From: Methanomicrobiales archaeon
Lineage (GTDB): Archaea > Halobacteriota > Methanomicrobia > Methanomicrobiales > Methanospirillaceae
Length of the DNA: 36,500 nt
Assembly: GCA_025350045.1 (NCBI GenBank)
Contig: JANXYM010000062.1
Span: forward strand, 1-36,500
Direction of reading: 5' to 3'
The position numbers were made by a program, and so were the translations under genes. Shown piece by piece: positions 3,191 to 32,370 of the stretch. Each line of letters opens with the position of its first letter. Position 1 is the first letter of the stretch. The notes beneath the pieces were generated by a model. That model saw nothing but the letters and a program-made list of their open reading frames with translations. It was not told the DNA's origin and did no database searches.

Positions 3191-3451
3191 ATGGTAAATA
3201 TAGATCAGATTATGAAATTCTCAATTTTTATCGAACAGGATGAAGACGGGCGGTATGTAGTGGAATGCACCGACTTGCCGGGATGCATGACCGAAGGCGA
3301 TACCCTCAGGGAAGCAATTGAAAATATCAATGAGGCAATTGTCGGCTGCATTAAGTCCCGGTTGAAGACAGCATTGGATGAGATCCACATCACGTCCCTG
3401 CCTTCCCACATGAGTATCGATGTCGATACTTCCGGTATAAATTATGCCTAA
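3191..3451 (+). CDS. hicB: HicB-family antitoxin
   Basis: The product is 86 residues from ATG 3191, or 79 from ATG 3212, where the typical HicB opening MKFSIFIEQDEDGRYVVECTDLPGC begins. HicB antitoxins share this degraded RNase H-like fold of about 70 residues and bind the HicA mRNA interferase. The DLPGC and EGDTLREAIENINEAI motifs are clear. No DNA-binding domain follows, so this is the short HicB type. A TATA-like CATATCTTTA at 3164-3173 lies about 25 bases before 3191, suggesting a leaderless transcript. The gene overlaps hicA by 8 bases. The partner is frameshifted, so this antitoxin may now be solitary. Confidence 0.85.
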   Translation: MVNIDQIMKFSIFIEQDEDGRYVVECTDLPGCMTEGDTLREAIENINEAIVGCIKSRLKTALDEIHITSLPSHMSIDVDTSGINYA

Positions 3452-3684
3452 ACTTCCGCGGGCTGGCGGTAAAAAAGCACATCGCTGCATTCAAGCGGGC
3501 AGGATGGGTGGATAACCACGTTGAGGGCAGCCACCATCTCCTGACAAAAAAGGGAAGTCTAGTTCATCTCTCAATCCCGGTGCATGCCGGACGAGATCTC
3601 GGTATTGGATTGTTGTGCAAGATGATCGATAAAGCCGGTATGACTCAGGAGGAATATTGTGCATATTTCTCCGGAGAAAAATAA
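3444..3684 (+). pseudogene. hicA: HicA-family mRNA interferase, frameshifted
   Basis: Starting at ATG 3444 the frame reads MPKLPRAGG and then runs to an early stop. One frame over, from the A-tract, the rest of HicA is intact: KHIAAFKRAGWVDNHVEGSHHLLTKKG, then HLSIPVHAGRDLGIGLLCKMIDKAGMTQEEY to TAA 3684. The break falls in a run of six A (3471-3476); five A would restore a normal 79-residue HicA with the catalytic histidine in GSHH. The gene overlaps hicB by 8 bases, as in functional hicBA pairs. It may be an inactivated toxin, a slippage-prone phase-variable site, or a homopolymer sequencing error. Confidence 0.8.
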
Positions 3685-3773
3685 GGTGCCGGTAGTTTGC
3701 CATAATTATTGACCCATTTTTACTGATTTTTGTCCGCTTGGGACTTTTTTTGAGAATTTTGTTGAACGGATCT

Positions 3774-4213
3774 TGATTTCGATTTTTCAACCAAATCCTG
3801 ATTGTAAACTTCTCATCGCGATTCTGATCGCGATTGAAAAACTGATCAGGATCAATCGAACCTTGATTGAAAACTTTCAGGCAAACCCTGATTTCAAATT
3901 TTTAAGCAGACTTTGATTTAGAAATTTTAACCGGACCTTGATTGCAACATGGATTCGATGATGCCCCTGCAAGGGGAATTTCAGACGTAAACTTCCTTTG
4001 TCAATTCAATCAAACCCTGATTTGAAATCCTCAACCGGATCCCGATTTCAATTTTTTAAGCAGACTTTGATCTCGATTTTTCCACCGGACCTTGAATGCA
4101 AAATTTTCACCGCGATCAGAATCGCGATTGAAAAGTTTGATCCGGATCAATCAAACCCTGATTTGAAATTCTCGACCGGATCCTGATTGCAATTTTTTTA
4201 AGCAGACTTTGAT
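3774..4213. repeat. 25-bp-period tandem array with hairpin spacers
   Basis: A TGAT core recurs at 3774, 3799, 3864, 3889, 3914, 3939, 4018, 4043 (CGAT), 4068, 4093 (TGAA), 4159, 4184 and 4210. Steps are exactly 25 bp (one of 26) within blocks and 65, 79 and 66 bp between blocks. Units start TGATT, have an A/T-rich middle and end in one of four tails in a set order: CAAACCC, CCGGATCC, GCAGACTT, CCGGACCT. Two of the spacers are homologous to each other and carry hairpins: ATCGCGAT-TCTG-ATCGCGAT at 3815-3834, CGCGAT-CAGA-ATCGCG at 4111-4126, and the palindrome TTGATCCGGATCAA at 4137-4150. The period is not a multiple of three, so it is not a coding repeat. It resembles an iteron or partition-type array, but no replication or partition gene is adjacent. 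Confidence 0.85.
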
Positions 4214-4414
4214 GGAAAAACAACAGGATCCCGGAAAGTTCCCCTCAGTTTGGCGTGTCCTGAGCGCTTCCCGGCACTCCCTATTATCCTCATCAAAGCA
4301 ATACCGCGGCACGCATTTCGATCATTACAAGTACCCGTATGAATATATTTTTCTGGGACATCCGGTATGCAGCGGCCTGTCAATGGCTGACTGTTCAACC
4401 GCAAACATAAATTA
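4214..4414. other. Stretch between the 25-bp array and the small gene
   Basis: A plus-strand frame of 68 codons spans this stretch, but its product has no recognisable character and begins inside the repeat array. It is treated as non-coding, with an AT-rich part near 4341-4352 (GAATATATTTTT) that could serve as a promoter element. Confidence 0.4.
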
Positions 4415-4699: not shown

Positions 4700-5635
4700 A
4701 TGACAACCGATGAGATCCCTGATGATGCAGGAGAAGCCGGAGAGTCCCGGCAGCAGCTGGTCTTTACCGGGCTCTGCATAGATCTCCTCATCCTGATCCC
4801 GGAGTCATTGGCAGTCCTCCTCTCAGGATCTGCCACACTCTTAGCGGATGTCATCAAGGGTGCAAACGAGATCCTCGCCACCTCCTTTGCCCTCCTGATC
4901 ATACGGCGGGTGACGCTGGGCGGGAAGTTCACGTACGATTACGGGATGGGAAAGTTCGAGTCCCTAACAAGGATCATCACGGGTGGCGTGATGCTGGTAT
5001 CCCTTGTTATCCTGCTCATCTTCACCATCAACCGGATTGTCAATCCCGAACATTTCGATATGGATGCTGCGTTCATCGGGATCCCGCTCATGATCCTTGC
5101 GGGTATTGCAGACTCGTACCACTGGAAGAAGAATTATCGCCTTGCCCAGAAAGAGCCCTCCCCTATCATGGAGGCCCAGTGGCGGCTCCGGCGGGCCAAG
5201 ACCTTCTCCGATCTCCTGATCCTCGTTGCGCTGGTACTCTCGGTTCTTCTCGTCCAGTACAGCTGGGCGGAGTATATCGATCCCGTTGTCTCCTTTGTCA
5301 TCATCGGGTTCCTGCTGCTTGCGGGATACCGGGAGATCTCCTCGTCGCTTCCGGATCTCTTTGACAAGACCCTGGAAGAAGAGCTCCAGATTGTCATTTT
5401 AAAGGAACTGGTCGGCTCGTTCGACAAGTTCGATGAATTCCACGGAGTCCGGTCGCGCCGGTCCGGGGCCAGGATCTATATCGACATCTTCCTCGGGTTC
5501 GATCCTGCGCAGAAGGTGGGGGATATGCAGGATAACATCGACTTCTTGAAAAGATCTATTGAAACCCTGATTCCCGGCAGTGTTGTCTGCATTATCCCCA
5601 CTAGCGAAAAGGACGTCCGGCCTGTCTCTTCATAA
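4700..5635 (+). CDS. Cation diffusion facilitator family transporter with atypical metal-site residues
   Basis: The product from ATG 4700 is 311 residues, with six predicted membrane segments and a C-terminal cytoplasmic domain of about 90 residues, the CDF layout. The frame is open to 4628 but that part does not resemble the family. Family marks are SGSATLLAD (residues 42-50), YGMGKFE (81-87) and DPVVSFVIIG (194-203). In canonical zinc or cadmium exporters the TM2 and TM5 sites are HxxxD. Here TM2 reads K53-GAN-E57 and TM5 reads K167-TFS-D171, so both histidines are lysines and one aspartate is glutamate. Proton-coupled efflux of a divalent metal is the family function, but the substrate of this variant cannot be inferred. 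It may not bind Zn2+ at this site. Confidence 0.85.
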   Translation: MTTDEIPDDAGEAGESRQQLVFTGLCIDLLILIPESLAVLLSGSATLLADVIKGANEILATSFALLIIRRVTLGGKFTYDYGMGKFESLTRIITGGVMLVSLVILLIFTINRIVNPEHFDMDAAFIGIPLMILAGIADSYHWKKNYRLAQKEPSPIMEAQWRLRRAKTFSDLLILVALVLSVLLVQYSWAEYIDPVVSFVIIGFLLLAGYREISSSLPDLFDKTLEEELQIVILKELVGSFDKFDEFHGVRSRRSGARIYIDIFLGFDPAQKVGDMQDNIDFLKRSIETLIPGSVVCIIPTSEKDVRPVSS

Positions 5636-28920: not shown

Positions 28921-31900
28921 TTGCATATCACAGAACTCGAGATAGATAATTTCAAGTCTTTTTCCAAAAAGACAAAAATCCCTTTTTTAGAAGGGTTTAC
29001 GGTTATATCCGGGCCCAACGGGTCCGGTAAAAGTAACATCATCGACTCTGTTCTTTTTGTACTGGCACTTTCGAGTTCCCGCAATCTCCGGGCCGAGAAG
29101 CTTACCGATCTGATCAACCTGAACTCCGGGCGCAATATCGCTGAGGTCGCCCTCCAGTTCTCAGATGGCACAAAGATACGGCGAAGGATCAAACGGACCG
29201 GCAACGGGTATTACAGCTATAACTACCTCAATGACCGGCTCTGCAAGCAGAGCGATATTGTCGAACATCTTGCAAAGCACGGGATCAAACCGCACGGGTA
29301 TAACGTGGTGATGCAGGGCGATGTGACCCGCATCATGGAGATGAGCGATTTCGAGAGGCGCAAGATTATCGACGAAATTGCCGGGGTCTCTGAATTTGAT
29401 ACCAAGAAACAGCTCGCGCTCTCCGAGCTCGATATTGTACGGGAGCGGATCGAACGTGAGGAACTCCTGCTCATCGAGCTGAGTAAACGGGCCCACGAGC
29501 TCAAACGCGAACGGGAGCATGCTCTTGAGTACCAGAAATGGCAGAAAGATCTCTCGTATTTCCAGAACTGCCGCTCAGCTGCCCAGCTGCATGTCCGGGA
29601 AACGGAACTCGGCTCGCTCCTGCGTTCAACTGAAGAGCACAATCTCCACCTGACCCGTATCACCTCCGACCGGAGCCTAGAGGAGAATGAACTCGCCTAC
29701 CTAAAGGCGGATCTCAAGGATATTGACGATCTGATCAACAAGAAGAGCGGATCGGATTACCTGAAACTGATAGCAGAATTAGAAGAAGCCAAGAGCGGCA
29801 TTAAACTAGCCGAGCAGACGATTGTGCGCCTCAGGAAGGAAAAAGAGACCAATCTGGAGGCTATCAACCGCGTCTATATGGATACAAAACGGGCCGAAGC
29901 CCGGGTAGCCGAATGCACTGACCTGATCCGGTCCCTTACCATTGATCGGACGAATGTTGCCATGGAAGTGGCCACGTTCAGGGCCCAGCTCGAAAAAGTC
30001 GAGACCGAGTTAAAGGCCCATTCCGAGGATACCGAAGGTTCGCGGGAGAAGCTGTTTGCACTCCTCAAGGAGAGCGAGGAGAAGAAGGGGCAGCGCTCGG
30101 AGATCCTGCACCAGCAGGATATGCTGATCGAGAAGAGCAGGATGCGTACTACTGAGCTGGAACGTCTTACCCTTCTTTTAAAACAGCTCGATGAGGAGTA
30201 TACGGCAAAAAAGACCCAGCTCACCGACAGCGAAAAGAGTGTCGGGGACCTCGCTTCCGAGAAGAAGGAACTGGATCGCAATCTCTCGGAACTCGAAGGT
30301 GCGATGTTTGCCCAGCGTTCCACCCTTGAACGGCTGAAAAACGAGATCCGGTCCGCCGAACAGGATGTGTACCGTCTTGAGGCTGCCCAGCAGGCCCGCG
30401 GGGAATCAGGTGGCAAGGCGATTGAGGCGATCATGGCCATGGAGGGTGTCCACGGAACCATAGCCGACCTCGGAAAAGCGCCTCCCGAGTATGCAAATGC
30501 GCTCAATATCGCGGCAGGAAACAAGCTCCAGTTCGTGGTCTGTGACGACGACCAGATCGCAGCGGATGCCATACGGTATCTCAAGGAGGAGCGGCTCGGG
30601 CGGGCTACATTCCTTCCTCTCAATAAATTAAAGCCCCCCCAGCTTCCGCCACTCAAGGAGCAGGGTGTGATCGATTATGCAGTGAACCTCATCGATTACG
30701 ATCCGAAATTTGACCGGGCGTTTGCTGTTGCACTGGGCGGCACGGTCGTGGTCGATACCCTTGACCGGGCACGTAAGCTGATCGGGAAGTACCGTATGGT
30801 CACCCTCGAAGGCGAGATACTCGAAAAGAGCGGTGCGATGACGGGAGGGTCGCAGAAGAAACAGGTGATCCGGGGTTTTGGTGCCGCAGTTGACGATGAG
30901 ATCCTGCGGATCCGGTCGCACCTGGGCGAATTGCAGGGAGAAGCTGCCACACTCGAAGCGGGCGTGAAGCGTCTCGTTGAAGAGGTGGATGCCCGGCGTG
31001 CCACACGGAATGATATAGATCAGAAAGTTGCCCGCTTCGGCATGTTTTCTGAGGAGTTCTCGCGCAGGTTTGAGGCGATAACGGTTGAGAAGCAGACCAT
31101 TGAAGCAGCGGTAGCCCGGCAGACGGAAGAGACCCGGAACGGCGGGGCAGAGCTGGGAGCTCTTGAAGGCGAGCTGGACAGGACAACCGAGGCGATCAAT
31201 GTGATCAATGGCCGGATCGAGGAGATCAAGAAGCGTCTCGATGATACGAATATTCCTGCTCTCACCGACCAGATGGAACGGAAGCGAAAGGAGATTGAGG
31301 AATCGGAACGCCGGCTCCGCAATAAGGAAGCGGACATCAATGATGCCCAGCGCGAACGCCAGCATTTCAATGCCCGCCTTATCGAACTGGGCGAGGATCG
31401 CGCCCGGCAGGATGAGCGCAACCGCCAGATCGATGCGGATATCGCAGGTTCGAACGAGCAGATAGGTACCCACAGGACGCAGATTGCGGCACTTGAAGAA
31501 CGGCAGAAGGAGTTCTCCGGCGTACTCGACGAGCTCCGGGCCAAACGCGGCGAAGCTTCGCAGCATATCCAGGACTCGGAACTCAAACTCATGAAGTTCG
31601 ATGCCGACAAGGAGCGAATCACCATCCAGCTGGGTGCAATCGATGAACGCGCCCGTACTCTTGCGATCGAAGTCGAGATGCTCAGGCAGCAGGTAGGAGA
31701 TATGGATGTCACTCTCTCGCTTTCGGAAATCGAAGGAAAGATTGCAGAAGCGGATGGGGCACTGCGTAAGATCGGCTCTGTGAACATGCTCGCCATTGAA
31801 GAGTATGAAAAAGTGCAGCGCCAGGTGGGCGAACGGACGGAGCGCAAGGAGACGCTTTCTTCCGAACGTGCAAGCCTGATCGAGCGGATCGAGCAGTTCG

Positions 31901-32370
31901 AGCAGATGAAATTCGAGGCATTTACCGCTGCATTCAAGGCTATTGACACCAACTTCCGTGAGATTTTTGCCCGTCTTACCAGCGGAAGCGGGAATCTTGT
32001 TCTGGAAAACGAAGAGGATCCGTTTGCCGGGGGAATGACGTTTGCTGTAAAGCCCCGGGACAAGAAAGTGCATCTCCTCTCGTCACTTTCCGGCGGGGAA
32101 AAGTCCCTTACCACCTTAGCATTTATCTTCTCTATCCAGCGCTACATCCCTGCCCCTTTCTATGCCTTCGATGAAGTTGATATGTCTCTCGATGGTTCTA
32201 ACGTGGAGCGGATCTCGTCCATGGTCAAGGAACTGGCTCCCAACTCGCAGTTCGTTATCGTCTCGCTGCGTAAACCGATGATCGATGCAGCACAACGGAT
32301 TATGGGTGTTACCCTGCGTTCCGACAAGAGCACGCTGGTCACCGGGGTCAAGGCACATGGCGGAGCCTGA
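28921..32370 (+). CDS. smc: Chromosome segregation protein SMC
   Basis: 1149 residues, typical length. The start is TTG 28921, supported by GTAAGGAG 8-15 bases upstream and the normal N-terminus MHITELEIDNFKSF. Walker A is GPNGSGKSN (residues 31-39). Long coiled coils flank a hinge at about residues 495-640, followed by GAMTGGSQKK. The C-terminal head has the signature LSGGEKSLTTLAF and Walker B FYAFDEVDMSLD. SMC dimers extrude DNA loops and organise the chromosome. scpA overlaps its last 14 bases, giving an SMC-ScpA operon; scpB is not in the window. Confidence 0.97.
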   Translation: MHITELEIDNFKSFSKKTKIPFLEGFTVISGPNGSGKSNIIDSVLFVLALSSSRNLRAEKLTDLINLNSGRNIAEVALQFSDGTKIRRRIKRTGNGYYSYNYLNDRLCKQSDIVEHLAKHGIKPHGYNVVMQGDVTRIMEMSDFERRKIIDEIAGVSEFDTKKQLALSELDIVRERIEREELLLIELSKRAHELKREREHALEYQKWQKDLSYFQNCRSAAQLHVRETELGSLLRSTEEHNLHLTRITSDRSLEENELAYLKADLKDIDDLINKKSGSDYLKLIAELEEAKSGIKLAEQTIVRLRKEKETNLEAINRVYMDTKRAEARVAECTDLIRSLTIDRTNVAMEVATFRAQLEKVETELKAHSEDTEGSREKLFALLKESEEKKGQRSEILHQQDMLIEKSRMRTTELERLTLLLKQLDEEYTAKKTQLTDSEKSVGDLASEKKELDRNLSELEGAMFAQRSTLERLKNEIRSAEQDVYRLEAAQQARGESGGKAIEAIMAMEGVHGTIADLGKAPPEYANALNIAAGNKLQFVVCDDDQIAADAIRYLKEERLGRATFLPLNKLKPPQLPPLKEQGVIDYAVNLIDYDPKFDRAFAVALGGTVVVDTLDRARKLIGKYRMVTLEGEILEKSGAMTGGSQKKQVIRGFGAAVDDEILRIRSHLGELQGEAATLEAGVKRLVEEVDARRATRNDIDQKVARFGMFSEEFSRRFEAITVEKQTIEAAVARQTEETRNGGAELGALEGELDRTTEAINVINGRIEEIKKRLDDTNIPALTDQMERKRKEIEESERRLRNKEADINDAQRERQHFNARLIELGEDRARQDERNRQIDADIAGSNEQIGTHRTQIAALEERQKEFSGVLDELRAKRGEASQHIQDSELKLMKFDADKERITIQLGAIDERARTLAIEVEMLRQQVGDMDVTLSLSEIEGKIAEADGALRKIGSVNMLAIEEYEKVQRQVGERTERKETLSSERASLIERIEQFEQMKFEAFTAAFKAIDTNFREIFARLTSGSGNLVLENEEDPFAGGMTFAVKPRDKKVHLLSSLSGGEKSLTTLAFIFSIQRYIPAPFYAFDEVDMSLDGSNVERISSMVKELAPNSQFVIVSLRKPMIDAAQRIMGVTLRSDKSTLVTGVKAHGGA

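Follow-up and report, generated by a model that had tools for sequence, protein, structure and literature searches.

Architecture of the locus

The window analysed here, meaning the whole 36.5-kb stretch of DNA, contains a non-coding repeat array on the plus strand. Upstream of it lie genes for HicB (PF15919) and HicA (PF07927), and on the opposite side lies a cation-efflux (CDF) gene (4700–5635, plus strand; PF01545), which is outside the array and by which the orthologous arrays of other species were recognized. A preliminary description of this DNA had placed the array beside hicBA in a variable region; hicBA is indeed upstream, but this is incidental, as it is the cation-efflux gene that is conserved beside the array. 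A frameshift at a poly-A tract breaks the hicA frame (3444–3684) close to its start, and the remainder still matches HicA; the break may reflect either a pseudogene or an error of assembly.

A unit profile together with a repeat search delimited the array to 3762–4222 (plus strand), slightly wider than the 3774–4213 first assigned to it. It comprises 13 units in four runs parted by three spacers. Run 1 (3762–3811) consists of two 25-bp units and is followed by a first copy of spacer A (40 bp, 3812–3851), which holds the palindrome CGCGATTCTGATCGCG at 3817–3832. Run 2 (3852–3951) contains four 25-bp units; the 54-bp spacer behind it (3952–4005), recognized by a step of 79, occupies the place of the canonical 66-bp spacer B. 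Run 3 (4006–4105) again has four 25-bp units and leads to a second copy of spacer A (41 bp, 4106–4146) with the palindrome CGCGATCAGAATCGCG at 4111–4126. A 14-bp palindrome, TTGATCCGGATCAA, spans the end of this copy (4137–4150), and run 4 (4147–4222) has three units, of which the last is degenerate and preceded by a 26-bp step. By the unit profile, the start-to-start steps of the 13 units were 25, 65, 25, 25, 25, 79, 25, 25, 25, 66, 25 and 26 bp. The preliminary description had reported 13 units at 25-bp steps with one of 26, which holds within the runs but not across the spacers that part them; the hairpins that it saw in two homologous spacers, and its 14-bp palindrome, were both recovered as the elements given above. 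CGCGATTCTGATCGCG is the exact reverse complement of CGCGATCAGAATCGCG, a relation that an inversion of the spacer A core would produce.

The self-match of the array at lag 25 was 0.454, and the best lag in 300 dinucleotide shuffles did not exceed 0.376, indicating that the periodicity is no product of chance. The window holds no further array.

The 25-bp unit carries a 19-bp dyad and probably acts as DNA

The consensus of 440 units from several species was TCAAYCRRACYYTGATTGA, a 19-bp imperfect dyad, followed by a 6-bp A/T linker. The half-site reads TCAAYCRRA, and two positions are nearly fixed, C6 (97%) and G14 (96%). When the unit profile was compared with its own reverse complement, it matched in a single register (r = 0.74; next best 0.38), indicating that the unit is a 19-bp imperfect dyad and then 6 bp. 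All units of one array share one orientation; matches on the opposite strand are each unit's own dyad, offset by 6.

Single array sequences folded better than shuffled ones on both strands (negative z-scores), a stability that DNA dyads yield anyway. No covariation between dyad partners was detected in the 440 units beyond the expectation for independent columns, and the consensus RNA fold of 34 full modules reached merely −5.9 kcal/mol with few supported pairs. We therefore took the array as a DNA element, and the pattern suggests that the family works as double-stranded DNA.

Eight orthologous array pairs of genomes G018 and G021 were used to examine constraint. The substitution rate per unit position ranged from 0.05 (C6) up to 0.24 and fell with the information content of the position (Spearman −0.80), while that of whole arrays was no lower than in the best-aligned flanks. 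Gene conversion could contribute to this pattern and to the likeness of the units. Small indels per substitution were 0.025 in arrays versus 0.043 in other intergenic DNA, a modest gap built on few events, so that selection on unit spacing is only weakly supported by this comparison. Large indels in arrays included unit multiples (25, 50 and 141 bp).

Units are arranged in a 281-bp higher-order module

The fixed order of unit types noticed at the outset proved real and belongs to a genus-wide higher-order module. This module consists of four units, the 66-bp spacer B, three units and the 40-bp spacer A, 281 bp in all, and 34 complete copies were found in several species. The palindrome CGCGATCATGATCGCG sits in its 40-bp spacer. 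Among the steps in 949 units of 89 arrays, 607 were 25 bp, 99 were 65 bp and 40 were 91 bp, with just 28 of 24 or 26 bp. Genus-wide, the 65-bp steps contain the conserved spacer A, TCATCGCGATCATGATCGCGATTGAAAA...GATCCGGA, and the 91-bp steps contain spacer B, with conserved TCCGTCGTgaA and CAnGTnnTTAACTTTT. The array in the window is a variant of this module, in which the 54-bp spacer replaces B.

The array belongs to a dispersed family specific to Methanoregula

A search at E ≤ 1e-6 detected the family in 27 of 39 Methanoregula genomes, with ~8–15 dispersed arrays per genome; in the window's own genome it was found on ~14 contigs. No match was obtained in 16 genomes representing ten further genera of the order. 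When ~85,000 species genomes were scanned with a two-unit pattern, 44 stretches were obtained, and Methanoregula or Methanomicrobiales MAGs accounted for 42. The two outlying matches, on a Proteobacteria contig and a Pricia contig (L164, L168), carry no array. The array is thus one copy of an interspersed element family specific to Methanoregula and no lone minisatellite. None of the titles and abstracts listed in a literature search described such an element in Methanoregula, although an earlier description may exist.

We also considered a mobile origin via viruses or plasmids. The sole viral match (L182) was a chance similarity within coding sequence, and neither the 72,556 plasmid records nor the phage sequences searched contained a match; this origin was rejected.

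Orthologous loci, gain and loss

The locus of the array in the window is orthologous in at least three other species. Arrays lie beside the same cation-efflux gene in G018 (L189), G021 (L198) and G053 (L219), with neighbour proteins 70–77% identical, and an array of G015 (L024) shares a gene further along the region. Another array, L009, pairs with L193/L201, where the neighbours are just 56% identical. The recurrence of neighbour genes reflects orthologous loci instead of a single shared function.

A comparison of copy number between genomes, proposed in the preliminary description for strains, gave unequal counts at shared loci (18 versus 10 and 15 versus 10 units). A locus with 18 units in G018 is reduced to a ~90-bp remnant in G021, and in G011 one array site has no array, its flanking genes being separated by 123 bp. 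Arrays thus decay to remnants, and whole lineages are without them. In an RpoB tree rooted at its midpoint, a five-genome clade that includes G011 lacks arrays, with a single weak match in one of the five, and in a 23-genome clade 21 genomes carry them. Three label changes are enough, as for one gain and two losses, and a single gain plus later losses would fit this tree; because the root is a midpoint, loss in the array-less clade is also conceivable. Since a sister clade is without arrays and others are eroded, the arrays are dispensable. The family is ancient, and its arrays have apparently kept their positions through a large part of the genus's history. The earlier suggestion of a recently amplified minisatellite was rejected: it agrees with the changes in copy number but not with the genus-wide distribution, the orthologous positions and the strongly diverged units.

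Gene context and chromosomal position

Every array examined was intergenic. Of 55 arrays closely flanked by genes on either side, 25 lay in convergent gaps (background 12–16%) and five in divergent gaps (background 25–27%); some of these arrays are mutually orthologous, so that p-values from these counts are too small. Nearly half of the arrays sit between co-directional genes. T runs of ≥5 occurred at 9.8–11.6 per kb on both strands of arrays versus 4.1 in other intergenic DNA; runs of ≥7 were not clearly enriched.

The origin could not be placed by GC skew in 20 samples of G021, so orc1 with its ORB-like elements was used as the marker; orc1, with these elements upstream of it, marks the likely origin. 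The orc1 regions of six genomes contained no arrays, only ORB-like elements, and the arrays were rejected as replication origins. Arrays were nearer orc1 than a uniform distribution predicts in G018 (p = 0.02) and G021 (p = 0.03), but not significantly so in G053 (p = 0.48). Twelve array flanks from other species, mapped on G018 on the assumption of conserved gene order, were also nearer orc1 (p = 6e-4). In a control, origin-distal genes were not less conserved; one fragment set of the origin control was stripped of low-complexity pieces before the search. Because G018 and G021 share loci, the mapping assumes gene order and the idea came from the same data, the origin bias is only suggestive.

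Comparison with known repeats

Iteron arrays of plasmid origins and partition sites are tandem protein-binding repeats of ~20 bp at a fixed pitch. The Methanoregula arrays differ from them in occupying many chromosomal loci, in having no plasmid match and in not being located at the origin. An iteron or origin role, one of the options first raised, is not supported, given the many arrays per chromosome, the ORB-like elements beside orc1 and the plasmid search. In eukaryotic higher-order satellites, diverged monomers stand in a fixed order within a longer repeat and copy number changes. The arrays resemble these in their diverged, ordered monomers, but they are prokaryotic, reach only hundreds of bp and lie dispersed between genes. 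The preliminary description had also excluded CRISPR architecture, and we agree: in place of near-identical repeats with unique spacers, the units are contiguous and diverged, and spacer sequence is conserved from locus to locus and across species.

BIMEs of bacterial REP sequences are presented in PMC2817692 as proposed protein-binding sites with roles in chromosome organization and transcription termination. As characterized there, BIMEs share with the arrays an extragenic, dispersed arrangement of regularly spaced palindromic units and other conserved spacers (PMC2817692). The arrays differ in being archaeal and in keeping one unit orientation at a 25-bp pitch, whereas the BIME units of that account alternate (PMC2817692). 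They also have no compensatory stem, their consensus is without a GTAG-type 5' tetranucleotide, and there are ~8–15 large arrays per genome compared with hundreds of small BIMEs. Because the compensatory stem and the alternating orientation are missing, we call the arrays BIME-like in organization and not BIMEs.

For archaea, PMC12284271 describes the 13-bp SegB motif TCTAGASTCTAGA as mostly single and intragenic. SegB sites in that description are, like the arrays, palindromic and scattered unevenly over an archaeal chromosome, and SegB is linked there to chromosome organization (PMC12284271). The arrays, in contrast, are tandem, intergenic and built of 19-bp dyads, and the TCTAGASTCTAGA motif is absent from the unit and module consensus.

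A tandem binding array as the leading explanation

Of the roles first proposed for the repeats, a protein-binding array gave the best fit, given the dyad units, the maintained 25-bp phase and the constraint on the half-sites. We tentatively interpret the arrays as tandem sites for a putative dimeric DNA-binding protein with a chromosome-organizing or gene-boundary role, an explanation that may well be right but on which we would not insist. Each 25-bp unit would be the site of a homodimeric, sequence-specific protein, made up of the 19-bp dyad with half-site TCAAYCRRA and the 6-bp A/T linker. With a fixed pitch, many dimers could bind adjacently and perhaps cooperatively, and the palindromic spacer A and spacer B would provide extra contact points. 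By analogy with bound repeat clusters of bacteria, the resulting nucleoprotein blocks at gene ends would most likely mark boundaries or organize the chromosome. We favour this explanation because of the single-register dyad profile, the 25-bp phase, the stereotyped module, the lack of covariation between dyad partners, the constraint by position, the orthologous loci, the preference for convergent gaps and the restriction to one genus. Counting against it, the arrays are dispensable, and whole arrays do not evolve more slowly than their best-aligned flanks. A bolder version, in which the putative protein assembles on dyad arrays gained once in Methanoregula and bundles, insulates or segregates the origin-side chromosome as an undescribed archaeal organizing or partition system, is rather unlikely.

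The close rival is a BIME-like interspersed repeat without current host function, which we regard as a real but lesser possibility. Here an old satellite-type module would have spread once and would be tolerated mainly where no promoter is harmed; slippage by whole units, together with recombination and gene conversion, would have kept its copies alike. Variable copy number at orthologous loci, large indels with unit multiples, decay to remnants and absence from whole lineages are all consistent with it, and tolerance alone would deplete arrays from divergent gaps. It does not explain why the position constraint matches the dyad, why an exact 25-bp phase persists among strongly diverged units, why two different conserved spacers keep a fixed order, or why convergent gaps are enriched more than mere promoter avoidance would produce.

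The preference for convergent pairs and the enrichment of T runs of ≥5 on both strands also point to a bidirectional terminator or read-through barrier, in which the linkers would supply T-tracts to either strand at 25-bp intervals, with or without a roadblock protein. We consider this improbable, since T-tracts require no 19-bp dyad, 25-bp phase or two conserved spacers, the longer T runs show no clear enrichment, and co-directional gene pairs flank almost half of the arrays. A partition role, likewise anticipated in the preliminary description, is conceivable but decidedly improbable. In this case a segregation protein would load on mostly origin-side arrays, forming a centromere-like or origin-organizing site; the proximity to orc1 in G018, in G021 and for the 12 mapped flanks, the ORB-like elements at orc1 and the conservation of origin-distal genes agree with this. 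The non-significant result in G053, the shared loci of G018 and G021, the origin of the hypothesis in the same data, and complete genomes without any array (G011, G016) argue against it. Transcription into a structured non-coding RNA would account for the way single sequences fold on either strand, but DNA dyads alone explain this, dyad partners do not covary, and the window has no Rfam match; we regard such an RNA as very improbable. A non-autonomous, MITE-like element mobilized by a transposase in trans is disfavoured and the least probable of all: the family is dispersed and multi-copy with a fixed-order module, but its positions are orthologous across species, array ends vary, loss leaves a partial remnant and no clean empty site, and viral or plasmid copies were not found.

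How chromosomes are marked, organized and segregated is largely open in most euryarchaea. A large, regular DNA element, apparently gained once within a single genus, kept at orthologous gene ends and lacking in sister lineages, offers a natural presence/absence comparison, and the array DNA is a ready bait for its putative protein. If the family is a mere repeat, its origin in an archaeon would still make it a well-placed example of an emerging BIME-like element.

Array polarity and other features of the window

Within ~150 kb of orc1, arrays pointed away from the origin in 4 of 5 cases in G018, 4 of 4 in G053, 2 of 2 in both G054 and G042, and 2 of 3 in G006; the loci are partly orthologous, and we take this polarity only as a hint. 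Two arrays, L183 (G018, 434.7 kb) and L014 (G000:C11), lie near a second orc1/cdc6 gene, on opposite sides of it.

In the window, a 31-bp tandem repeat (878–937), present in about two identical copies and containing AAACCCTTC sub-repeats, is located directly behind the gene at 100–882 and is distinct from the array. An SMC gene (SMC_N, SMC_hinge) is found at 28921–32370, ~25 kb from the array, and its presence in the same window is probably a coincidence.
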